From assembly GCA_019931185.1 (NCBI GenBank), contig JAINDK010000023.1, positions 1-64,000 of the forward strand: a stretch of DNA of 64,000 nt, in the 5' to 3' direction. The notes under the pieces are model-generated. The model was not told the DNA's origin. It saw only the letters and a program-made list of their open reading frames with translations, and made no database searches. Below are positions 43,539-54,757 of the stretch, one piece after another; within the stretch, counting starts at the first letter, position 1, and every line of letters starts with the position of its first letter. Source of the stretch: Bryobacter sp. CoA8 C33 (GTDB taxonomy: Bacteria; Acidobacteriota; Terriglobia; Bryobacterales; Bryobacteraceae). The translations under genes and the position numbers were made by a program.

Positions 43539-43606
43539 AGATCGAATATCGCACAGGGCGGGATTTGGGGGAGAGAATTGGGTGGGAGGGGCGACTATTA
43601 CGGTAT

Positions 43607-44746
43607 ATGGCGGTGATGGTTGAACAGGAAGAGGTGCTGTGGCTAGCGTTGCGGATGACGCCACAACTGGGGGCGAGGCGTGCGGTCGAACTGGTGCGGC
43701 GCTATGGCTCGCCCGGGGCGATTTTCCTGAAGGATGCGCAGGAGTTGATGGCGGCGGGGCTGAGCGCGAGCGTGGCGCGGTCGATCGAAGCTGGTTCAGC
43801 GATGGACGATGCGCTCGAGCAGCAGCGGTTGTTGCGGGCAACGGAGACGGAAATCGTGACGCTGATGGATGAGCGTTATCCGGATGGATTGGGTCAGATC
43901 TTTGATCCACCGCTGCTTCTTTTTACGCGTGGAAACGCGGAGTTGATGCAGAATCCGGCGGTGGCCGTGGTAGGGACGAGGCGGCCGAGCGCCTATGGAA
44001 CGGCGGTGGCGGAAAAATTCGCCCGGGACTTGGCCGAGGCGGGGTTGGTGGTGGTAAGCGGCATGGCGCGCGGGATTGATACGGTGGCGCACAAGGCCGC
44101 GCTGGCCGTGGGAGGCAAGACGGTGGCGGTGCTGGGCTGTGGAGCGGATGTGGTGTACCCGGCGGAGAACCGGCAATTGGCGGCTCAGATAGCGCGGGAT
44201 GGCCTGATTTTGAGCGAGTATCCGTTGAGGACACCGGGGTATCCGCAGAATTTTCCGGTGCGAAACCGGATTGTGAGCGGGCTCAGCCAGGGGGTGCTGA
44301 TTGTCGAAGGGGCGCAGTATTCGGGATCTTCAATTACGGCACGGCTGGCGATGGATCAGGGGCGGGAGGTGTTTGCCGTGCCGGGCAACGTTACGTCCAA
44401 GCAGAGCTGGGGGCCGAACTTGCTAATCCGGCAGGGAGCGCGGCTGGTGCAGGAGCCGAGCGATGTGCTGTCGGATCTTCCAGAGGAAACGAGGCGGAGA
44501 TTGAAGATGCAGGGGCGGCAGAGGCTTCTGCTCGATGAGATTCCGCACCCGATGCATCAATTGCGGGAGCGGGTGATGCGGTTGTTGTCGCCAGATGAAC
44601 CATTGACGATTGATGATCTGATTCCGCGGTTGAACGCAAGCGAGGTGGTGAGTCCGTCGGAGCTGATCGCGATTTTGTTCGAGTTGGAGTTGGATGGGGT
44701 GGTGCGGCAGTTGCCGGGCAAGGCGTATGTGAAGGTATGGCAATAG
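43607..44746 (+). CDS. dprA: DNA processing protein DprA (Smf)
   Basis: About 379 residues from ATG at 43607 (MAVMVEQEEVLWLALRM). DprA binds incoming single-stranded DNA during natural transformation and loads RecA. The Rossmann core shows VAVVGTRRPSAYG, VSGMARGIDTVAHKAA, VLGCGADVVYPAENRQL, SEYPLRTPGYPQNFPVRNRI and VIVEGAQYSGSSITARLAM-type motifs of the family. The C-terminal 70 residues form a winged-helix-like DML1 domain (MRLLSPDEPLTIDDLIPRL). The next gene, a GNAT acetyltransferase, starts 10 bases downstream. Neighbourhood with topA, here on the opposite strand, is a frequent arrangement in bacteria. Confidence 0.93.
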   Translation: MAVMVEQEEVLWLALRMTPQLGARRAVELVRRYGSPGAIFLKDAQELMAAGLSASVARSIEAGSAMDDALEQQRLLRATETEIVTLMDERYPDGLGQIFDPPLLLFTRGNAELMQNPAVAVVGTRRPSAYGTAVAEKFARDLAEAGLVVVSGMARGIDTVAHKAALAVGGKTVAVLGCGADVVYPAENRQLAAQIARDGLILSEYPLRTPGYPQNFPVRNRIVSGLSQGVLIVEGAQYSGSSITARLAMDQGREVFAVPGNVTSKQSWGPNLLIRQGARLVQEPSDVLSDLPEETRRRLKMQGRQRLLLDEIPHPMHQLRERVMRLLSPDEPLTIDDLIPRLNASEVVSPSELIAILFELELDGVVRQLPGKAYVKVWQ

Positions 44747-44755
44747 ACTGAAGGG

Positions 44756-45235
44756 ATGGTGGATTTGCGGCGGTTGCGGGAAGAAGATGCCGGAGCGCTG
44801 TTTGCGCTGCTGGAAGGGACGGGGATGGGGGAGGCGGAGTTCGTGGCGGCGATCGCGGAGCGGGTGAGTCTCGAGGAAGCGGGGATGGTGAGGGCGTACA
44901 CGGTGTGGGAGACGGCGAGCGGGGAACTGGCGGGGACGATCCGGATGCTGTACCGCCAGGGGTGGGGGGAGATCGGGTTGTGGTTGGGCCGCGCGTATCA
45001 GGGCCGAGGATTGGGCGGAGAAGCGATCGAGCAAACGCGTGAGCTTGGCTTTTGGCAATTGGGGCTCGAGCGGATCGAGGCACGGATTACTGTGGGCAAT
45101 GAAGCGAGCCGGCGGGCCTTTGCCGGCCGGGGATTCCGGTTGCGGGAAGTACAGAGCCGGGCCGTGCTAGAGGGTGGGCTTTGGCGCGATGTGTTGGTGC
45201 TGGAGGCACGGCGATCAGACTTTGGCTGGCGCTGA
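44756..45235 (+). CDS. GNAT-family N-acetyltransferase
   Basis: 159 residues. RimJ/RimL-like GNAT pattern: N-terminal LRRLREEDAGALFALLEG, then GTIRMLYRQGWGEIGLWLGRAYQGRGLGGEAIEQ. The latter contains the acetyl-CoA pyrophosphate-binding R-G-x-G-L-G loop. ARITVGNEASRRAFAGRGFR is the Asn-Xaa-Ser-Arg/Ala-Phe element. It transfers acetyl from acetyl-CoA to an amine, acceptor unknown. It starts 10 bases after dprA and converges on topA, overlapping its 3' end by 21 bases. Confidence 0.88.
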   Translation: MVDLRRLREEDAGALFALLEGTGMGEAEFVAAIAERVSLEEAGMVRAYTVWETASGELAGTIRMLYRQGWGEIGLWLGRAYQGRGLGGEAIEQTRELGFWQLGLERIEARITVGNEASRRAFAGRGFRLREVQSRAVLEGGLWRDVLVLEARRSDFGWR

Positions 45236-47863
45236 TCGCTTGCGGGCAGACTTTTTTGCTGGGGCACGGCGGGCCTTGGCGGCTTTTTTCGCGGCTTCCG
45301 GGCCGCCGGCCTCAGCGATTTGCTGGGCACGGGCGGCAAGGAGCTCATAGGCCTGTTCGTTGGTGAACTGCATCGGGTCGGCGCCGCGCGGTACCGTGGC
45401 ATTGACTTCGCCGTCGGTGATGTAGGCGCCGTAGCGGCCGCTGAGCAGCTTGACGGCTTTGCCGTTGGCCGGGTTGGCGCCGAAATCCTTCAATGAAGTA
45501 AGGCCACGCACGCCACCGCGGCCGCGAGCCTTGGGTTGGCGGATGAGCTCGATGGCCTGATCGAGTGTAACGTCGATGGGAGAAATGTCGGCCGGGAGGC
45601 TGCGAGTTTCGCTGCCCGATTGAACGTAGGGGCCGAAGCGGCCGTTGGCGGCGATGACGGGCTCGCCGGTATCCGGGAACTCGCCGAGGGTGCGGGGCAG
45701 GGCCAGGAGTTTGGTGGCGTGCTCGAGGTCGACATCCTTGAGATCGGTGCCCTGGACGAGGGAAGCCATTTTGGGCTTGGAGCCATCGCGGCCGTCGCCC
45801 AACTGGACATAGGGGCCGTAGCGGCCAACCTTGAGATAGACCGGCATGCCGGATTCGGGATGGAGCCCAAGGCTTTCTGGCTCTTTGCTAGCCTGGGCGA
45901 GCATGTCGAGCGCCTTGGCGAGGGTGAGTTCGTCAGGCGGCATCTCGTCGGGCACGCTCGAGCGGCGTTCGCCATCACTGATGAAGGGACCGTAGCGGCC
46001 GATGCGAACTTCGACTTTCTTGCCCTCCCATTCACCCAAGGGGAGCCCATTGATGATGCGGGGATCGATTTCTTTTTCGCCATTAGAGACTAGGTCTTTG
46101 AGGCCGGGCAGGCCGTCGCCGAAGTAGAAAGCCTTGAGATATTGAGTGGACTTGCTTTCGCCGCGGGAGATGGAGTCGAGATCGTCCTCAAGCGAGGCGG
46201 TGTATTTGTAATCGAGAAAATTGCTGAAGTGTTGCTCGAGCAGGCCAACAACGCCCATCGCGGTGAAGGTGGGGATGAGGGCCGTGCCTTTCTTGAAGGC
46301 GTAGCTGCGGTTGAGAACGAGTTCGACGATCGAGGCCCAGGTGGAGGGCCGGCCGATACCGAGTTTTTCCAGTTCCTTGATGAGGGAGCCTTCAGTGAAG
46401 CGGTTGGGGGGCTGGGTGGAGCGCTCGAGGGGGTCGGCGGTGAGCGTTTTCAGGCCGTCGCGGGCGGTGAGGGCAGGCAGCACACGATCTTGTTCGCCGC
46501 CGGCGTCCTCATCGACATCCTCGGTGTAGGCTTTGAGGAAGCCGGCAAAGGCAATGGTCTTGCCGCTTGAGCGGAGGGTAGCCTCGCTCGCGTCGATGAG
46601 CACGGTGGTATTGGTGCCCCGGGCATCGGCCATCTGACAGGCCACGGTGCGCTTATAAATGAGGTCATAGAGGCGGAAGGCCTCCTGGCCGAGCGAGGCC
46701 TGGACCTGTTCGGGGGCGGTGAAACGGTCGCCCGCGGGGCGGATGGCCTCGTGGGCTTCCTGGGCGTTTTTGACCTTGGTTTCGTAGGTGCGGACCGAGG
46801 GGGCGAGATATTCCTTGCCGTATTCGGACTCAATGAGATGGCGGGCAGCGCGGATGGCCTCATCGGACAGCGAAGTCGAGTCGGTACGCATGTAGGTGAT
46901 GAAGCCGTTTTCGTAAAGCTGTTGCGCTACCTGCATGGTGCGCTTGGCTGGAAAGCGGAGCTTGGAGTTGGCCTCCATCTGAAGGGTGGAGGTGACAAAG
47001 GGCGCGGCCGGGCGCTGAACGAAGGGTTTCTGCTCGACGGAACGCACGACGACTGGCCCGGCGTTCAGCAGGCCGACCACGCGTTCGGCGCCGGCACGGT
47101 CGAGCAGGATGAGTGCCTCGGGGTCATCCAGCTTGCCGGTGTCGGGGTTGAAGTCCTTGCTGGTGGCGACGCGCTTGCCGCCAAGTTGGAAGAGTTCTGA
47201 CTCGAAGGCAGGCTCGGTGCCGGGTTTAGTCAGTTTGGCTTTGACAGACCAATAGGCGGCTGAGCGGAAGCGGATGCGGGCCCGCTCCCGTTCGACCAGC
47301 AGGCGCACGGCCACGCTCTGGACGCGGCCGGCGCTGAGGCCGGGCGCCATTTTCTTCCAAAGCAGCGGGCTGACCTCGTAGCCGAAGAGACGGTCAATAA
47401 TGCGGCGGGTCTCCTGAGCGCGAACGAGATCTTCATCGATCTCGCGGGCATTCTTGAGAGAGTTCAGAATGGCGTCCTTGGTGATCTCGTGGAAAACAAG
47501 GCGGCGAGTGGGGATTTTCGGTTTCAATACCTCGCGCAAATGCCAAGAGATGGACTCGCCTTCGCGGTCTTCGTCAGTGGCCAAGTAGAGGGTTTCTGAG
47601 CTTTTCAGAAGGTCCTGCAGTTCCTTGACTTGGTCCTTCTTGCTTTTCGGGACGACGTAGATGGGTTCGAAATCCTGTTCGATGTTGACGCCGAGGCGGG
47701 CCCAGGGTTCTTTTTTGAGTTTGGCGGGAACTTCCGAGGCATTTTCCGGGAGATCCCGCACATGCCCCATCGAGGCTTTGACGACGAAATCCTTACCAAG
47801 GAATTTCGTGATGGTCTTTGCTTTTGTCGGAGACTCAACAATCACCAGTGACTTCGATGCCAT
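45215..47863 (-). CDS. topA: DNA topoisomerase I (TopA), lacking C-terminal zinc ribbons
   Basis: 882 residues from ATG at 47863 (MASKSLVIVESPTKAKTITK). It relaxes negative supercoils by a type IA single-strand break. The Toprim start SLVIVESPTKAKT, the acidic ATDEDREGE, and the tyrosine region ENGFITYMRTDSTSLSDEA are all present. After the core come four C-terminal modules with the phrase GRYGPFI/GRYGPYVQ/GRFGPYVQ/GRYGAYIT. A Lys/Ala/Arg-rich tail ends the protein. I see no CxxC pair in the C-terminus, unlike E. coli TopA. A zinc-ribbon protein is encoded divergently 69 bases away. It overlaps the convergent GNAT gene by 21 bases. Confidence 0.95.
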   Translation of the reverse strand: MASKSLVIVESPTKAKTITKFLGKDFVVKASMGHVRDLPENASEVPAKLKKEPWARLGVNIEQDFEPIYVVPKSKKDQVKELQDLLKSSETLYLATDEDREGESISWHLREVLKPKIPTRRLVFHEITKDAILNSLKNAREIDEDLVRAQETRRIIDRLFGYEVSPLLWKKMAPGLSAGRVQSVAVRLLVERERARIRFRSAAYWSVKAKLTKPGTEPAFESELFQLGGKRVATSKDFNPDTGKLDDPEALILLDRAGAERVVGLLNAGPVVVRSVEQKPFVQRPAAPFVTSTLQMEANSKLRFPAKRTMQVAQQLYENGFITYMRTDSTSLSDEAIRAARHLIESEYGKEYLAPSVRTYETKVKNAQEAHEAIRPAGDRFTAPEQVQASLGQEAFRLYDLIYKRTVACQMADARGTNTTVLIDASEATLRSSGKTIAFAGFLKAYTEDVDEDAGGEQDRVLPALTARDGLKTLTADPLERSTQPPNRFTEGSLIKELEKLGIGRPSTWASIVELVLNRSYAFKKGTALIPTFTAMGVVGLLEQHFSNFLDYKYTASLEDDLDSISRGESKSTQYLKAFYFGDGLPGLKDLVSNGEKEIDPRIINGLPLGEWEGKKVEVRIGRYGPFISDGERRSSVPDEMPPDELTLAKALDMLAQASKEPESLGLHPESGMPVYLKVGRYGPYVQLGDGRDGSKPKMASLVQGTDLKDVDLEHATKLLALPRTLGEFPDTGEPVIAANGRFGPYVQSGSETRSLPADISPIDVTLDQAIELIRQPKARGRGGVRGLTSLKDFGANPANGKAVKLLSGRYGAYITDGEVNATVPRGADPMQFTNEQAYELLAARAQQIAEAGGPEAAKKAAKARRAPAKKSARKRSAPAKV

Positions 47864-47932
47864 TCGCAATATTAACCGTTCTTCAGAATTTTGCCGTAAG
47901 AGATACCCAAAAGATCCGCAACCGTTCGGCTA

Positions 47933-48214
47933 GTGAAAAGTGTACAACGAAAACTGGACATGTTCAGTGATGCCATGGAATGCCCCCGTTGCGCGACAGG
48001 GCGTATCGTTCTGAAACAGGCACGGGATGGGCGGTCGTTTTTCGGCTGCAACAGTTATCCGAGATGCACGTTTAGCGCCAAACGCAAGCCGATCGGGGAG
48101 AGGTGTGGGGAATGCTCGAATCCTTGGCTGGAGGAGCACGTGGTGAGAGGGGTGAAGTGGGCGCGGTGTCCGGTGACGGGGTGCCGTTTTGAAAAAAGAT
48201 TGAGCCAGTTTTGA
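47933..48214 (+). CDS. stand-alone topoisomerase-type C4 zinc-ribbon protein
   Basis: Up to 93 residues. Start options are GTG 47933, ATG 47960 and ATG 47975; the motifs fit any of them. C17-P-R-C20 then FFGC39NSYPRC45 is the classic zf-C4_Topoisom pattern (CxxC, then GCSxYPxC). A second pair, C58-G-E-C61 with C78-PVTG-C83, forms another ribbon. Such ribbons normally sit at the C-terminus of TopA and bind single-stranded DNA. Here TopA lacks them and the gene starts 69 bases away on the other strand, so the two share a control region. Inference: it supplies the missing DNA-binding module in trans. Confidence 0.85.
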   Translation: MKSVQRKLDMFSDAMECPRCATGRIVLKQARDGRSFFGCNSYPRCTFSAKRKPIGERCGECSNPWLEEHVVRGVKWARCPVTGCRFEKRLSQF

Positions 48215-48236
48215 ATCACTGGGGCGAGATTAGTGT

Positions 48237-48251
48237 CTACTAAGTTAGTAG
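48237..48251. promoter_or_regulatory. perfect 15-bp palindrome, probable TetR operator
   Basis: CTACTAA g TTAGTAG is a perfect inverted repeat with one central base. It ends 10 bases before the tetR ATG at 48262. A further copy of the half site (CTAGTAG) and a partial one flank it. Position and symmetry fit autorepression by the TetR product and control of the efflux operon. Confidence 0.65.
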
Positions 48252-48261
48252 GCGCTAGTAG

Positions 48262-48879
48262 ATGGCTATAGCAACTAGACTCAGTGGTCAAGATCGCCGC
48301 TCGATGATTCTCAAGGAAGCGATCCGGCTTTTCAGTGAAAAAGGGTTCCGGGGCGTGACGACGCGTGAGCTGGCGGCGAGTATCGGTGTCAGCGAGCCCG
48401 TGTTGTACCAACATTTTCCAAACAAGAAGGATTTGTACACGGCGATTCTCGAGGCATCGAAGGACGAGTATTACGTGGAGGCGCTTGAGCGGCTGCGGGC
48501 CCTGGGTGAGGGCGCGGATGATGAAGCGTTTTTCCGACATTTAGCCGAGTCGATGATCGAGTGGCACCAGCAGAAGCCGGAACTGGTGAGGCTGAAGATG
48601 TTTTCGAGCATGGAAGGGCATGAGCAGATGCAGGAGTTTCACGATAAGCAGGCCAAGCCATTCTTGGAAGTAATTGTTGGCTATATCGAGAAGCGGCAAA
48701 GGGAGGGGGCTTTCGCGGCGGTGGATCCGCTGACAGCTGCCTTTGTTTTCGCGGGGGCCATTGCGAACTACTGCCAGTCGACGATCGTATTTCGCTCGCC
48801 GTTGTGCGCCGGGATTGGTCAGGTGGAGATGGTGAATTTGTCGGTGGGACTTTTCTTGAATGGAATTCGGAAGGGATAG
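48262..48879 (+). CDS. TetR-family transcriptional regulator of the efflux operon
   Basis: 205 residues. The N-terminal helix-turn-helix (MILKEAIRLFSEKGFRGVTT then RELAASIGVSEPVLYQHFPN) is a standard TetR DNA-binding domain. The C-terminal region is a helical ligand pocket (PFLEVIVGYIEKRQREGAFA and AFVFAGAIANYCQSTIVFRS). It is the first gene of an operon with the adaptor (3-base gap) and the pump. A palindrome directly upstream of the ATG is a likely operator. It should repress until a pump substrate binds; the ligand is unknown. Confidence 0.9.
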   Translation: MAIATRLSGQDRRSMILKEAIRLFSEKGFRGVTTRELAASIGVSEPVLYQHFPNKKDLYTAILEASKDEYYVEALERLRALGEGADDEAFFRHLAESMIEWHQQKPELVRLKMFSSMEGHEQMQEFHDKQAKPFLEVIVGYIEKRQREGAFAAVDPLTAAFVFAGAIANYCQSTIVFRSPLCAGIGQVEMVNLSVGLFLNGIRKG

Positions 48880-48882
48880 GAC

Positions 48883-50067
48883 ATGAAGCGGAATTGGATT
48901 TTGTTTTTGGCGCTGGTCGCGCTGGCGGGTTGCGGAGCCAAGCAAGAGGCGAAGAAGGAAGAGAAGAAGGCGCCGGAGGTGATTGCCGTGCGGGTGGAAC
49001 CGGCCGTGGCGCGAACGTTGGATAAGTCGATTGATGTGACGGGGACGCTTGAAGCCGATGAACAGGTGAACCTGAGTTTTGAGATACCGGGGCGGGTATC
49101 TGGGCTGCGGGTGGATTTTGGCCAACAGGTGAAGAAGGGAGATGTGATTGCCGAATTGGACCGGCGGGAGTACGAATGGCAACTGGAGCGTGCGAAGGCG
49201 AACGTCGTGAACCTGTCGGCGCGGTTGGGGATGAAGAGTCCAGAGGAGGCATACCCGACCGTGACGGCGGCGATGCGGCAGGCGCGGGCGAACTATGACG
49301 ACGCGAAGTCGAAGTATGAGTCGGCGGCGAAGCTGGTGCAGAGCGGGGATATATCGCGGGAGCGGGCCAATGAGCTTGAAAAAGCGCTGCAAGCGCGGCA
49401 GGCGGTGATCGATTCGGCGCGGGATGAGATGAACGGCTTGATCGCCCAACTGCGGGCGCAGAAGGCGGATCTGGAGATCGCGACGAAGCGCTTGGCCGAT
49501 ACGGTGATTCGCGCGCCGTTTGATGGGGGGATCAGCGCGAAGTTGATCAGTCCGGGGCAATACATCAAGGACAATACGCCGGTGGCGACACTGGTGAAGA
49601 CGAGTCCGCTGCGGCTGCGGGTGGAAGTGCCGGAGAGCTATTCGGCGTTGATCCGTGTTGGGAGTGTGGTGACGTTTACGACGGATGCGGCGCCGGGAAA
49701 GGAGTTCAGCGCGGTGATTCAGAAATTGAACCCGGCCTTTGAGGCAAAGAGCCGGACGCTAATGGCGGAATCGAAGGTGGCGGCGACAGATGGGCGGCTG
49801 CGGCCGGGGAGTTTCGTGCAGGTCAAGCTGGTGACGAAGAAATCGGATGCGGTGGTGATGGTACCGCGCAGCGCGGTGTACAGTGTGGCGGGGTTAAACA
49901 AGGTTTATGTGATCCGCAACGGCAAGGCGGTGGAGGTGAGGATGGCTCCGGGAGCGGAGGTGGACGGCTATGCCGAGGCGCCGGCGGGGGCCGTGGCGGC
50001 TGGTGAGGCCATCGCGGTGAGCAATCTGTTGAACCTGGTGAACGGCGCGGCCGTTCGGACGCTGTAG
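48883..50067 (+). CDS. RND efflux periplasmic adaptor lipoprotein
   Basis: 394 residues, with lipobox LAGC (lipidated cysteine C17) after MKRNWILFLALVALAG. Hallmarks of the membrane-fusion family follow. The barrel-sandwich half SIDVTGTLEADEQVNLSF with GRVSGLRVDFGQQVKKGDVI comes first, then a coiled-coil hairpin at about 90-200, then DTVIRAPFDGGISAKLISPG, and a beta-barrel with VMVPRSAVYSVAGLNKV. It links the inner-membrane pump to the outer-membrane channel. The next gene starts 13 bases later. It has Lys/Glu-rich residues just after the lipid anchor. Confidence 0.93.
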   Translation: MKRNWILFLALVALAGCGAKQEAKKEEKKAPEVIAVRVEPAVARTLDKSIDVTGTLEADEQVNLSFEIPGRVSGLRVDFGQQVKKGDVIAELDRREYEWQLERAKANVVNLSARLGMKSPEEAYPTVTAAMRQARANYDDAKSKYESAAKLVQSGDISRERANELEKALQARQAVIDSARDEMNGLIAQLRAQKADLEIATKRLADTVIRAPFDGGISAKLISPGQYIKDNTPVATLVKTSPLRLRVEVPESYSALIRVGSVVTFTTDAAPGKEFSAVIQKLNPAFEAKSRTLMAESKVAATDGRLRPGSFVQVKLVTKKSDAVVMVPRSAVYSVAGLNKVYVIRNGKAVEVRMAPGAEVDGYAEAPAGAVAAGEAIAVSNLLNLVNGAAVRTL

Positions 50068-50080
50068 GAGGCCGAGAGAA

Positions 50081-53000
50081 ATGCAGAAACTAGCTGAGAT
50101 TTGTATCAAGCGTCCGGTCTTCGCCACGATGTTGATCATGGCGCTGGTGGTGCTGGGGCTGGATTCCTACCGGCGGCTGGGCGTGGATTTCTTTCCCAAA
50201 GTGGAGTTTCCGTTCGTGACGGTGACGACGCTGTTGCCGGGAGCGGCGCCGGAGGAAGTGGAAAGCCAGGTGAGCAAGCGGATTGAGGAAGCGGTGAACA
50301 CGATTTCGGGGATCGAGGAACTGCGATCGGTCTCGAGCGAAGGCACCTCGCTGGTTTCGATTCAGTTCAGTCTGGATAAGGACGGGGACGTGGCGGCGCA
50401 GGAGGTGCGGGACAAGGTGAATCAGGTGCTGAACCAGTTGCCGCGGGACGCCAAGCAGCCGGTGATTCAGAAGGTGGCGACGGATGCCTCGCCGGTGATC
50501 AGCATCGTGGTAAGTTCGCCGCGGGATATTCGCGAGACGACGAAGCTGGTCGATGACTTGGTCAAGAAAAACATCGAGAGCCTGAACGGGGTGGGCGAGG
50601 TGCGCTTTGTCGGGGATCGCACGCGGCAAATCCAGGTGGTGCTCGATGGAGAGAAGCTTTACAGCTATAACCTGAACGTGGACCAGATCCGGGCGGCGCT
50701 GGTGGCGCAGAACGTAGAGATCCCGGGGGGGAGGTTGGACCAGGGATCACGCGAGGTGAGCGTGCGGACGCTGGGACGGCTGACGCGCCCGGAGAATTTC
50801 GCCGACATCACGATCGGGACGCTGAACGGTGCTCCGGTGCGGATCCGGGACGTTGCGCAGGTGGTGGATGGGGTGCAGGAGCCGCGGTCGATGGCGCGGC
50901 TGAACGGAGTGGCGGCTGTGGTGATGGAGGTGCGCAAGCAGGCGGGCACGAACACGCTCGATGTGATCGGCGTGGTGAAGGAGCGGATCGCGACGCTGCA
51001 GGAATCCGGGTTGATCCCGGCGGATTTACGAGTCGATTATTCGCGCGATCAGAGTTTCTTCATCCGTGGGGCGTTCGAGGCGGTACAGGCGCATCTGGTG
51101 GAGGGGGGGCTCTTTGCGGCGATTGTGGTGCTGCTGTTTATCCGGAGTTGGCGGGCGACGATAATCGCGGCGATTGCGATTCCGACATCGATTATTTCGA
51201 CCTACACGCTGATGAACCTGATGGGCTTCACGCTGAATCAGATCTCGATGCTGGCGCTGGTGCTGATGGTAGGTATCGTGATCGATGACGCGATCGTGGT
51301 GCTGGAGAATATTTTCCGCTTCCAGGAAGAGAAGGGCATGGGCCCGATGGAGGCGGCTGTGGAAGGGACGCGGGAAATTGGTCTGGCGGTGCTGGCGACG
51401 ACGCTGAGCCTGGCGGTGGTGTTTATGCCGGTGGCGCTGATGTCGGGTATCGTGGGCCGGTTTATGTCGAGCTTCGGCTTCACGGCGGCGTTCGCGATCA
51501 TGGTGAGCCTGCTGGTGAGCTTCACGCTGACGCCGGCTTTTTCGGCACGGTTTTTGAAAGCGGCGCCAAAGGGAGCGCATGAGGGGACCAAGCAAGGATT
51601 TCTGTTCCGGATCGTGGCGCGGCCCTACATGGCACTGCTGGGCTGGAGCATGAGGCACCGATGGGTGATTGTCGTGGTGTCGCTGGCGGTGGTGTATTCG
51701 ACGGGACCGTTGTTCATGAGCATGGGAAAGGATTTTCTGCCCGTGGATGACCAGAGCTATTTCGAGGTCACCGTGAGGACGCCGCCGGGGTCTTCGCTGG
51801 AGGGGACGACGAAGGCGATCGATGCCGTGGAGGCGGAGATGAAGAAACTGCCTGGCCTGAAGTATCTGTTGACGACGGTGGGCGCCGATATTCAGAAGCG
51901 AGTCGACCGGGGGAGCATTATTGTGCAATTGGTGCAGCCAAAGGAACGGCAATACTCGCAGCAGCAGTTAATGGAGATGTCGAGACAGATGCTGAGCAAG
52001 ATGCCAAAGGAGATGGTGGTGGGGGTGCAACTGCCGGCGCTGATCAGCGGCGGTGCGAGCGACCGCGACTATATGTACTACGTGCAAGGGCCGGACCTGG
52101 CGCAATTGGAGAAGTATTCGAAGGCGATCATGGGAAAGCTGAAGGATGTGCCCGGCGTGGTGGACATTGACTCGTCCTATGAGCCAGGCAAGCCAGAGTT
52201 GCGCGTGGATATCAACCGCGACAAGGCGGCGGACCTGAACGTGAATGTGAACAGCATCGCCGGCGCCCTGCGGACGCTGGTGGCGGGTGATGACCAAGTG
52301 ACCACATATCGTGAGGGGGATGACCGCTACGACGTGCAACTGCGGGTGGACCGGGCGTTCCGGACCTCGCCGCGGGCGCTGAACCGCTTGTTTGTGCCAT
52401 CGGCGACGTTGGGCAATGTGCCGGTGTCGAATGTGGCGAGCCTGAAAGACGCCACCGGGCCCTCGGCGATCGAGCGCTACAACCGGCAGCGGCAGATCCT
52501 GATTCAGGCCAACATCGCCAAGGGTGGTTCGCTGTCGGAGGCAATCGAGGCGACGCAGCGGATTGTGGCGGAGCTGAACATGCCGCCGCAGTATGCGACG
52601 GGCACGGTGGGACGGTCGAAGGAGTTTGGCAAGGCGGCGGTGAATTTCGTAGCGGCCTTCGTTCTGTGTTTCGCGTTTATGTACATGATTCTGGCGGCGC
52701 AGTTTGAAAGCTTTATCGACCCGGTGACGATTCTGTTGTCGCTGCCGTTGAGCGTGCCCTTTGCGCTGTTGAGCCTGAAGATCGCGGGGGAGAACTACAA
52801 CATCATCTATACGTCGGTGGGCATCCTGGTGCTGTTCGGGATCGTAAAGAAGAACTCGATTCTGCAGGTGGACCACATCAAGCGGCTGCGAGAGCAGGGG
52901 CTTGAAAGGCTGCCTGCGATTCTCAAGGGATGTGAGGACCGGTTGCGGCCGATTCTGATGACGACGGCGGCGCTGGTGGCGGGCATGATCCCGCTAGCGC

Positions 53001-54757
53001 TGGGCGGCGGAGCGGGAGCCGGTTCGCGGCGAACGGTGGCGATTGTGGTGATTGGTGGGCAGACGATGTGTCTGCTGCTGAGTTTGCTGGTGACGCCGGT
53101 GGTGTATTCGCTGTTTGATGACATGGCGAACTGGCGGTTGATTTCGCGGTTGAATGGCGTGCTGAAAAGGCGGCGGCTAAAGGAAGCCTTTGCCGGGCTG
53201 ATTGGAATGTTGCTCGTGGTGGCGGTGGCGCAAGCGGCTGAGCCGGGGCGCGTGGGCTTATCGGGCAGCCAGAAGCGAATGATGCTGAAGGATGCGATCG
53301 AGATGGCTCTGGCGAATAACCTGGACCTCGAGATAGAGAAGACGAATTCGGTTTTGAGCCGGAGCCAGTACCGCCAGACCTTTGGCGTCTGGGATCCGGT
53401 GCTGGGCTACCGCCCGAATATGACTTATAACGTGACGCCGACTTCGAGCCCGCTGCAGGCTGTGGACGGGAGACTTGTGGACCGGAATTTCAGCAACAAC
53501 CTGACGCTGTCGCAACGTGCGCCCTGGCAGGGAGCGCGGCTTGACGTGCAGTTCAATAATTCGCGGGTGAGCACGACGAATCCGTTCGTGGGCTTGAATC
53601 CCTTGACGCAGTCGACGCTGGGGATCAACCTGACGCAGCCGATTTTGCGGGGGCGCAAGCTCGACAACGAGCGGAATCAGATTCGATTGCGCCGTAAGCA
53701 GATCGATCTGAGCGAAGCGGATTATGAGTTGCGGGTGACGCAGGTGGTGACGCTGGTAACGCAGGCGTATTGGGATCTGGTGGCAGCGCGGCAGGATATC
53801 GAAGTGAAGAAGCAGAGTGTCGAGCTGGCGCGGGATCAATATGAACGGTCCAAGCGGCAGATCGAAGCAGGGACACTGGCGCGCGTGGAGTTGTCGGCGG
53901 CGCAGGCGGAGTTGGAGCGACGGCAGGATACGTATTATTCGAGCGTGGGATTGCTGACGGAGATTGAGAACAACCTGAAGGGTTTGTTGGCCGGGGGCCG
54001 GGATCAGACGGTATGGGGCGATGAATTGGTGCCGGTGGAGACGCGGAGCGTGGCGCCGCCGGCAACCGAGGATGTGAGGCGGGCCGTTGATGGGGCCATT
54101 GGAAAGCGGCCGGAGTTGAAGAGCCTGAAGCTGCGGCTGGAATCGAACGAATTCCAGAAGGAATTTGCCCGCGACCAGACACTGCCTGGGGCGAATCTGG
54201 TGGCGGGCTACACGATGGCGGGCCTGGCCGGGGCGAGGAGTACGGCCCGGAATCCTTTTTTTAATGGACCGGCCGGGCAGTTGGTGCCGCCAGCCTTTGT
54301 GGGAGGCTATGGAACGGCGCTGCGGCAATTGCTGGGCCAGGACTTTACGGGCTGGCAGGCGGGATTACAGATCGACTGGACGGCGCGGAACCGCTCGGCA
54401 CAGGAGGCGGTGGCGCAGACGAAGTTAACCGAGCGGCAGTTGAATTTGCAGAAGACGAGAATTGAACAGCAAATAGAGGTGGAGGTGCGCAACAGTTTGC
54501 AGGCGCTGCGTACCGCCGAGCAGCGGATCGTGGCGGCCGAGGCGAGCGTAAAAGCAGCGCAGGAGAAACTCGACAGTGAGCAGCGGCTGTTCGAAACCGG
54601 CGAGAGCACGAATTTTCTGGTGTTGACGCGGCAGAACGAATTCGCGGATTCGCAGCGCCGGGCGCTGGTGGCGCGGCTGGATTTCAATAAGGCGATTGCG
54701 CGGCTTGAGCAGGCCCTGGGGGCGACGCTGGAGACGCACAGCATTACGTTGAAGTAA
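50081..54757 (+). CDS. RND efflux pump fused to a TolC-type outer-membrane channel
   Basis: One 1558-codon frame with no internal stop. Residues 1-1027 are an HAE-type RND permease: start AEICIKRPVFATMLIMAL, proton-relay Asp pair in VGIVIDDAIVVLENI (near 400), and twelve membrane segments ending VTPVVYSLFDDMA. Residues 1029-1053 are KRRRLKEAFAGLIGMLLVVA then VAQAA, a signal-peptide-like stretch with AQA cleavage motif at 1050-1052. Residues 1054-1558 are a TolC-family protein: AIEMALANNLDLEIEKTNSV, then TLGINLTQPILRGR, a helical hairpin, and RLEQALGATLE. RBS AGGAGG lies at 50067-50072. With adaptor and TetR it forms a complete three-gene efflux operon. Confidence 0.93.
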   Translation: MQKLAEICIKRPVFATMLIMALVVLGLDSYRRLGVDFFPKVEFPFVTVTTLLPGAAPEEVESQVSKRIEEAVNTISGIEELRSVSSEGTSLVSIQFSLDKDGDVAAQEVRDKVNQVLNQLPRDAKQPVIQKVATDASPVISIVVSSPRDIRETTKLVDDLVKKNIESLNGVGEVRFVGDRTRQIQVVLDGEKLYSYNLNVDQIRAALVAQNVEIPGGRLDQGSREVSVRTLGRLTRPENFADITIGTLNGAPVRIRDVAQVVDGVQEPRSMARLNGVAAVVMEVRKQAGTNTLDVIGVVKERIATLQESGLIPADLRVDYSRDQSFFIRGAFEAVQAHLVEGGLFAAIVVLLFIRSWRATIIAAIAIPTSIISTYTLMNLMGFTLNQISMLALVLMVGIVIDDAIVVLENIFRFQEEKGMGPMEAAVEGTREIGLAVLATTLSLAVVFMPVALMSGIVGRFMSSFGFTAAFAIMVSLLVSFTLTPAFSARFLKAAPKGAHEGTKQGFLFRIVARPYMALLGWSMRHRWVIVVVSLAVVYSTGPLFMSMGKDFLPVDDQSYFEVTVRTPPGSSLEGTTKAIDAVEAEMKKLPGLKYLLTTVGADIQKRVDRGSIIVQLVQPKERQYSQQQLMEMSRQMLSKMPKEMVVGVQLPALISGGASDRDYMYYVQGPDLAQLEKYSKAIMGKLKDVPGVVDIDSSYEPGKPELRVDINRDKAADLNVNVNSIAGALRTLVAGDDQVTTYREGDDRYDVQLRVDRAFRTSPRALNRLFVPSATLGNVPVSNVASLKDATGPSAIERYNRQRQILIQANIAKGGSLSEAIEATQRIVAELNMPPQYATGTVGRSKEFGKAAVNFVAAFVLCFAFMYMILAAQFESFIDPVTILLSLPLSVPFALLSLKIAGENYNIIYTSVGILVLFGIVKKNSILQVDHIKRLREQGLERLPAILKGCEDRLRPILMTTAALVAGMIPLALGGGAGAGSRRTVAIVVIGGQTMCLLLSLLVTPVVYSLFDDMANWRLISRLNGVLKRRRLKEAFAGLIGMLLVVAVAQAAEPGRVGLSGSQKRMMLKDAIEMALANNLDLEIEKTNSVLSRSQYRQTFGVWDPVLGYRPNMTYNVTPTSSPLQAVDGRLVDRNFSNNLTLSQRAPWQGARLDVQFNNSRVSTTNPFVGLNPLTQSTLGINLTQPILRGRKLDNERNQIRLRRKQIDLSEADYELRVTQVVTLVTQAYWDLVAARQDIEVKKQSVELARDQYERSKRQIEAGTLARVELSAAQAELERRQDTYYSSVGLLTEIENNLKGLLAGGRDQTVWGDELVPVETRSVAPPATEDVRRAVDGAIGKRPELKSLKLRLESNEFQKEFARDQTLPGANLVAGYTMAGLAGARSTARNPFFNGPAGQLVPPAFVGGYGTALRQLLGQDFTGWQAGLQIDWTARNRSAQEAVAQTKLTERQLNLQKTRIEQQIEVEVRNSLQALRTAEQRIVAAEASVKAAQEKLDSEQRLFETGESTNFLVLTRQNEFADSQRRALVARLDFNKAIARLEQALGATLETHSITLK

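Follow-up and report, generated by a model that had tools for sequence, protein, structure and literature searches.

Stand-alone proteins made of topoisomerase-type zinc ribbons are already known as a kind, and the closest described case is Escherichia coli YrdD, a 180-aa protein of four-cysteine (C4) ribbons in an organism whose resident TopA has another C-terminus. The likeness of YrdD to the C-terminus of the Bacillus subtilis and Helicobacter pylori TopA has been noted before, and its function was called unknown in 2004 (PMC545778). Among DNA topoisomerases I, the Mycobacterium-type enzyme has the domain order Toprim, Topoisom_bac, four Toprim_C_rpt (C_rpt) repeats and a Lys-rich tail, with no zinc; that of Acidobacterium capsulatum is of the ribbon type, with five ribbons and no C_rpt (PMC9369019). 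The gene order dprA-smg-topA is found in Neisseria, and in 14 of 24 phyla dprA and topA lie together (PMC5817196). Here we describe a locus of Bryobacter sp. CoA8 C33 (Acidobacteriota; family Bryobacteraceae) in which a C_rpt-type topA without zinc ribbons stands divergent from a small gene for two such ribbons, within a window of 64,000 nucleotides (nt; positions 1 to 64,000 of contig JAINDK010000023.1, assembly GCA_019931185.1). The small gene is probably the retained C-terminal end, comprising the last two C4 ribbons, of the family's native ribbon-type TopA, displaced from its place by dprA. This explains an origin for the protein, and its function is one that we infer from comparison. The elements concerned are:

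43565..44746, plus strand: dprA, the ancestral neighbour of topA, which marks the locus of the TopA exchange.
45215..47863, minus strand: topA, encoding a Toprim_C_rpt-type DNA topoisomerase I without zinc ribbons and with a Lys-rich tail; the displacing enzyme, judging from sequence, Pfam and trees.
47960..48214, plus strand: two-ribbon gene with ATG 47960 as its start and 84 codons in length; its product is homologous to the two terminal C4 ribbons of native acidobacterial TopA.
47981..48067, plus strand: ribbon 1, with C8, C11, C30 and C36 (84-aa numbering) and with F27 and Y33 at positions that stack on single-stranded DNA (ssDNA), by comparison with F616/Y622 of E. coli TopA (EcTOP1; PMC4678816).
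48104..48184, plus strand: ribbon 2, with C49, C52, C70 and C75, and W67 at position -3 of the third Cys, invariant in the 8 genomes of the genus.

The resident TopA (882 aa) starts at ATG 47863 and reads down to 45215 on the minus strand. It has the TOPRIM domain, the core with the catalytic Tyr, the C_rpt repeats and the lack of zinc that characterise a Toprim_C_rpt-type IA topoisomerase I; Pfam finds Toprim, Topoisom_bac and four Toprim_C_rpt stretches in it and no Zn_ribbon_Top1, and it is the only Topoisom_bac protein in the 5.05 Mb genome. An earlier note, made from the letters of this stretch alone, had described the protein as ending in four modules and a Lys-rich tail without zinc ribbons, which agrees with these searches. 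A look for ribbons elsewhere in the protein returned none: its sole cysteine lies within ...ACQMADARG, and a C4 ribbon is therefore impossible there. The domain order is that of the Mycobacterium-type enzyme, and actinobacterial TopAs fall within the wider clade of the window TopA; unlike the Mycobacterium type, its nearest relatives outside Acidobacteriota are planctomycetal.

The small protein carries two complete C4 ribbons and no catalytic domain. Ribbon 1 matches Zn_ribbon_Top1 (PF01396) at 43.1-43.5 bits, against a cut-off of 32, and the small gene is the only place in the genome that exceeds this cut-off; ribbon 2 scores under the Pfam threshold, and its four cysteines are invariant across the 8 genomes. 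The earlier note had proposed that a divergent small gene encodes two C4 ribbons of the kind usually fused to TopA, and both the Zn_ribbon_Top1 match and the homology to fused acidobacterial TopA bear this out; the length of 93 codons and the gap of 69 bp given there do not stand, being 84 codons and 96 bp. GTG 47933 was rejected as a start: because in two of the eight congeners a TGA cuts the frame ahead of ATG 47960, and a Met at 47960 is common to all eight, we place the start at ATG 47960. An AlphaFold model of the protein consists of beta-ribbons with a mean pLDDT of 84 (from a two-row alignment). VIA-align on this model gave Z scores of at most 4.1, with E. coli TopA ribbons among the matches (Z 3.4-3.9), and Foldseek gave no match at E <= 0.001, returning just generic zinc ribbons, among which E. 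coli TopA stood at E 0.3; the predicted structure thus supports a ribbon fold and points to no specific function. A PDB sequence search with the small protein and a PADLOC search each returned no match.

Across the phylum, matches to the small protein occur in 305 of 396 genomes; among the matches listed, most lie in frames of ~700-1000 aa, which are ribbons fused to TopA. Ribbon frames of ~1000 aa in sister family f89 are UvrD-type helicases (one examined); there, a UvrD/helicase IV-type protein (L310:5274-8324, minus strand) carries two topoisomerase-type zinc ribbons at its C-terminus. Within the window's own family, the small protein aligns over 74 residues, gapless, with ribbons 4 and 5 at the terminal end of the native fused TopA, at 33-41% identity; the ribbon-type acidobacterial enzyme, which has its ribbons fused to a catalytic core, unlike the window protein, would be the source. 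In a tree of the two-ribbon unit (72 columns, long branches), stand-alone and relic copies come together as a single group (96/93) nested among the fused ribbons of the family. The ribbons are therefore of the type carried by the native TopAs of the dprA locus, not of the type of the resident TopA.

The resident TopA has a different history. A C_rpt TopA was found in 21 of 237 family genomes, from 7 genera (20 by match, plus G532, whose topA is cut by a contig end), and the remaining family genomes have ribbon TopAs ~43% identical to it. All C_rpt TopAs of this family group with those of sister family f89 in a single clade (100) whose nearest outside relatives are from Planctomycetota, and this clade and the native ribbon TopAs stand on opposite sides of long branches (0.63 and 0.86). 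The dprA-topA neighbourhood occurs with both TopA types. In the DprA tree the family is one clade (100), in which C_rpt genomes scatter among ribbon-type genomes with six changes; dprA itself is native. As both TopA types lie beside dprA and the C_rpt genomes are scattered on the DprA tree, topA was exchanged at its own locus while dprA stayed. The exchange either happened more than once or was followed by patchy retention.

Other topoisomerase-like frames were seen in these genomes. Genome G512 of sister family f89 has two different C_rpt TopAs (L302 and L309), each by its own DprA, which may reflect contamination (4%) or a true duplication. In the congener G449, one frame (L124:1-3288, minus strand) combines Toprim, Topoisom_bac, DEAD, Helicase_C and RecQ_Zn_bind and is an apparent natural fusion of topoisomerase III and RecQ. 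Weakly similar TopA-like frames of ~1300-1450 aa occur in many family genomes, and none in that of the window.

A remnant of the displaced enzyme survives in sister genus g279, where a frame of ~320 aa lies directly downstream of topA on the same strand in all three genomes. Its first ~150 residues are collinear with the native TopA TOPRIM (hhalign probability 93, E 4.6e-8, compared with E 0.044 for the best of 30 column shuffles), its DxDxE acids are replaced, it lacks the Topoisom_bac core that bears the active tyrosine, and its end corresponds to the last three ribbons (E 4e-34). The topAs of the three genomes are 96-98% identical and the remnants 55-68% identical. Constraint is stronger on the ribbon part of the remnant than on its TOPRIM part, since the ratio of non-synonymous to synonymous substitution rates (dN/dS) is lower in the former (0.10-0.25 vs 0.29-0.42). 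This fossil with a dead TOPRIM domain shows the path of replacement. Because the ribbons are homologous to the native TopA end, the resident TopA is of a foreign lineage, both enzymes occupy the same dprA locus and g279 preserves a fossil, we conclude that the native TopA was displaced and that its terminal ribbons were retained.

The earlier note had instead taken the pair for one protein split in two. Under such a fission, the ancestor of the window TopA had both C_rpt modules and ribbons, and the ribbons were cut off as a gene of their own. TopAs with both domain types do exist, such as that of Caulobacter with 1 ribbon and 3 C_rpt (PMC9369019), and in a third genus (G603) a two-ribbon gene begins 9 nt past the topA stop, sharing strand and reading frame with topA. 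Where both types occur, however, the ribbons lie directly after D4 and ahead of the C_rpt repeats (PMC9369019). Moreover, among 79 C_rpt TopA loci outside the family we found no ribbon fused and none within ~6 kb as far as the sequence reached; actinobacterial C_rpt loci that were examined likewise had no ribbon gene nearby. The remnant of g279 also has a decayed TOPRIM of its own, which fission cannot give, and the ribbons branch inside those of native fused TopAs. The two pieces do not come from one TopA: the gapless match, the tree, the fossil and the foreign lineage of the resident enzyme all speak against a common source, and we regard fission as disfavoured and quite improbable.

The survey of outside loci bears equally on a scenario in which the C_rpt topA and the ribbon gene were acquired jointly from a donor outside the family. 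The three genera with the pair have dprA genes that do not form a single clade, and the pair may have moved as a unit within the family. No ribbon lies near any of the 79 outside TopAs, however, none stands beside topA in the C_rpt genomes of sister family f89, and the ribbons group with the family's own fused ribbons; a joint arrival from outside is accordingly hard to credit. As to how often the stand-alone form arose, its copies are one group in the ribbon tree, yet the dprA genes of those genomes are scattered, and the two trees accommodate either a single origin with transfer of the pair or several retentions.

Retention after displacement would have proceeded as follows. A ribbon-type TopA encoded next to dprA would have been displaced at that locus by a C_rpt TopA of another lineage; the old topA would then have lost its catalytic core while selection kept its terminal ribbons, first as a remnant downstream of topA, with a decayed TOPRIM as still seen in g279, and later as a minimal two-ribbon protein. 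The divergent layout is limited to the window's genus, the ribbon gene lying downstream of topA on the same strand in two other genera. Members of the window's genus have topA in the opposite orientation to dprA and the ribbon gene on the strand of dprA, as a single later inversion of topA would give. Some points weigh against this account. The ribbon tree rests on 72 columns, in which long-branch effects may be at work. We found no genome in which intact TopAs of both types stand next to each other, and the intermediate stage is accordingly one that we infer. Finally, nine of the 21 family genomes with a C_rpt TopA have no ribbon gene, which is therefore dispensable in some lineages.

That absence would also suit a functionless remnant in decay that has not yet been lost, as would the faster evolution of the ribbon gene (dN 0.04-0.59 vs 0.06-0.10 for topA, leaving aside the near-identical pair G529-G532). 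The pattern of conservation argues otherwise. In the window's genus, the small gene is present and divergent from topA in 8 of 8 genomes, confirming the linkage in relatives that the earlier note had made a test; none of the eight cysteines varies, nor do F27 and W67, the alignment is free of indels, and wherever dS could be measured dN/dS lies at 0.07-0.27 (0.02-0.09 for topA). In addition, all nine of nine two-ribbon proteins have a Trp at -3 of ribbon 2's third Cys, a residue that none of 56 fused TopAs has there. Purifying selection acts on the gene and has preserved every Cys; its presence in all eight genomes, the invariant cysteines, the low dN/dS and the conserved blocks upstream of it together mean that it is real and maintained; we consider decay disfavoured and give it very little credence.

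The surroundings of the ribbon gene comprise:

47864..47959, no strand assigned: divergent intergenic region of 96 bp, with blocks AACCGTTC, TCCGCA.CC and GAAAAGTGTACAACGGAA conserved in the 8 genomes; presumed promoter region.
48262..54757, plus strand: genes for a TetR regulator, a HlyD subunit and an RND pump, which follow the ribbon gene on its strand in this genus only.

The start codons of topA and the ribbon gene have 96 bp between them, and in the three blocks 70-80% of columns are invariant, compared with 8 among the ribbon gene's 84 third codon positions; the shared control region suggested in the earlier note thus finds a counterpart in conserved sequence. No sigma-70 promoter or terminator was found in 47700-48350. 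Block GAAAAGTGTACAACGGAA, right upstream of the ribbon start, is nearly invariant in the 8 genomes and has no fit to the sigma-70 consensus; for one or the other gene it could act as operator or promoter.

The order on the other side raises the possibility that the ribbon protein is unconnected with TopA and instead serves the efflux genes, for instance by regulating them. The tetR gene begins 47 bp downstream of the ribbon gene, and each of the 8 genomes of the genus has tetR, hlyD and RND genes after the ribbon gene in the same orientation. In g279 and g280, however, the ribbon gene is next to topA and has no such efflux genes adjoining, the constant neighbour being topA, and an efflux role is unlikely. 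Within this cluster, a single 1558-aa frame (50081-54757, plus strand) encodes an RND permease (PF00873) together with a TolC-type outer-membrane factor (two OEP stretches); because frames of comparable length (1558-1581 aa) are present in most congeners, the fusion looks real.

The displacement of a dprA-linked TopA may not be confined to this family. E. coli MG1655 has the order smf(dprA)-smg-yrdD-tsaC-aroE, in which yrdD occupies the place of topA in the Neisseria order, and its topA lies elsewhere, by cysB. YrdD aligns with native acidobacterial TopA ends at 33-46% identity over 161-207 aa (E down to 2e-44), including 41-46% over 161-176 aa for four of the seven native TopAs, and with E. 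coli TopA at about 28% (E 3e-8). These comparisons suggest that YrdD is itself the leftover of a dprA-linked TopA; we found no published statement to this effect in the literature searched. It would presumably be an independent event in a separate phylum. YrdD and the window protein are 42% identical over 64 aa; unlike YrdD, which has four ribbons, the window protein has two, and unlike in the window, topA of E. coli is not adjacent to yrdD. The window protein probably works like YrdD, by analogy, and we do not class it as a YrdD orthologue. We lean, if only slightly, towards the more general view that displacing a dprA-linked ribbon-type TopA repeatedly leaves its terminal ribbons behind as a selected, stand-alone ssDNA-binding gene, with YrdD and the acidobacterial genes as independent products.

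Several observations bear on what such a protein may do. F616 and Y622 of E. coli TopA (-3 and +3 of C619) stack on ssDNA bases, Zn-dependent ssDNA binding has been reported for YrdD (PMC4678816), and relaxation represses yrdD (PMC545778). In the window protein F27 and Y33 hold the equivalent places around C30, and the fixed Trp of ribbon 2 suggests an adaptation to working alone. By analogy, the protein would act as YrdD does, as a small Zn-dependent ssDNA binder where DNA is underwound; the odds that it binds ssDNA in a topology-related role appear roughly balanced. It might assist TopA in trans or contact RNA polymerase, for which the free C-terminal domain of E. coli TopA competes with TopA (PMC9352719); direct contact with TopA is the less probable of these properties.

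At this locus an essential enzyme has been caught being replaced in its own place with one small part of the old enzyme kept, a history that offers an origin for E. coli YrdD. The C-terminal type of TopA switches between close relatives and is a poor guide to phylogeny. If the retention of terminal ribbons has indeed occurred repeatedly, it implies that they do a job that the catalytic replacement cannot. The history of the locus predicts, for the terminal ribbons of topoisomerase I, a function that can be separated from relaxation.

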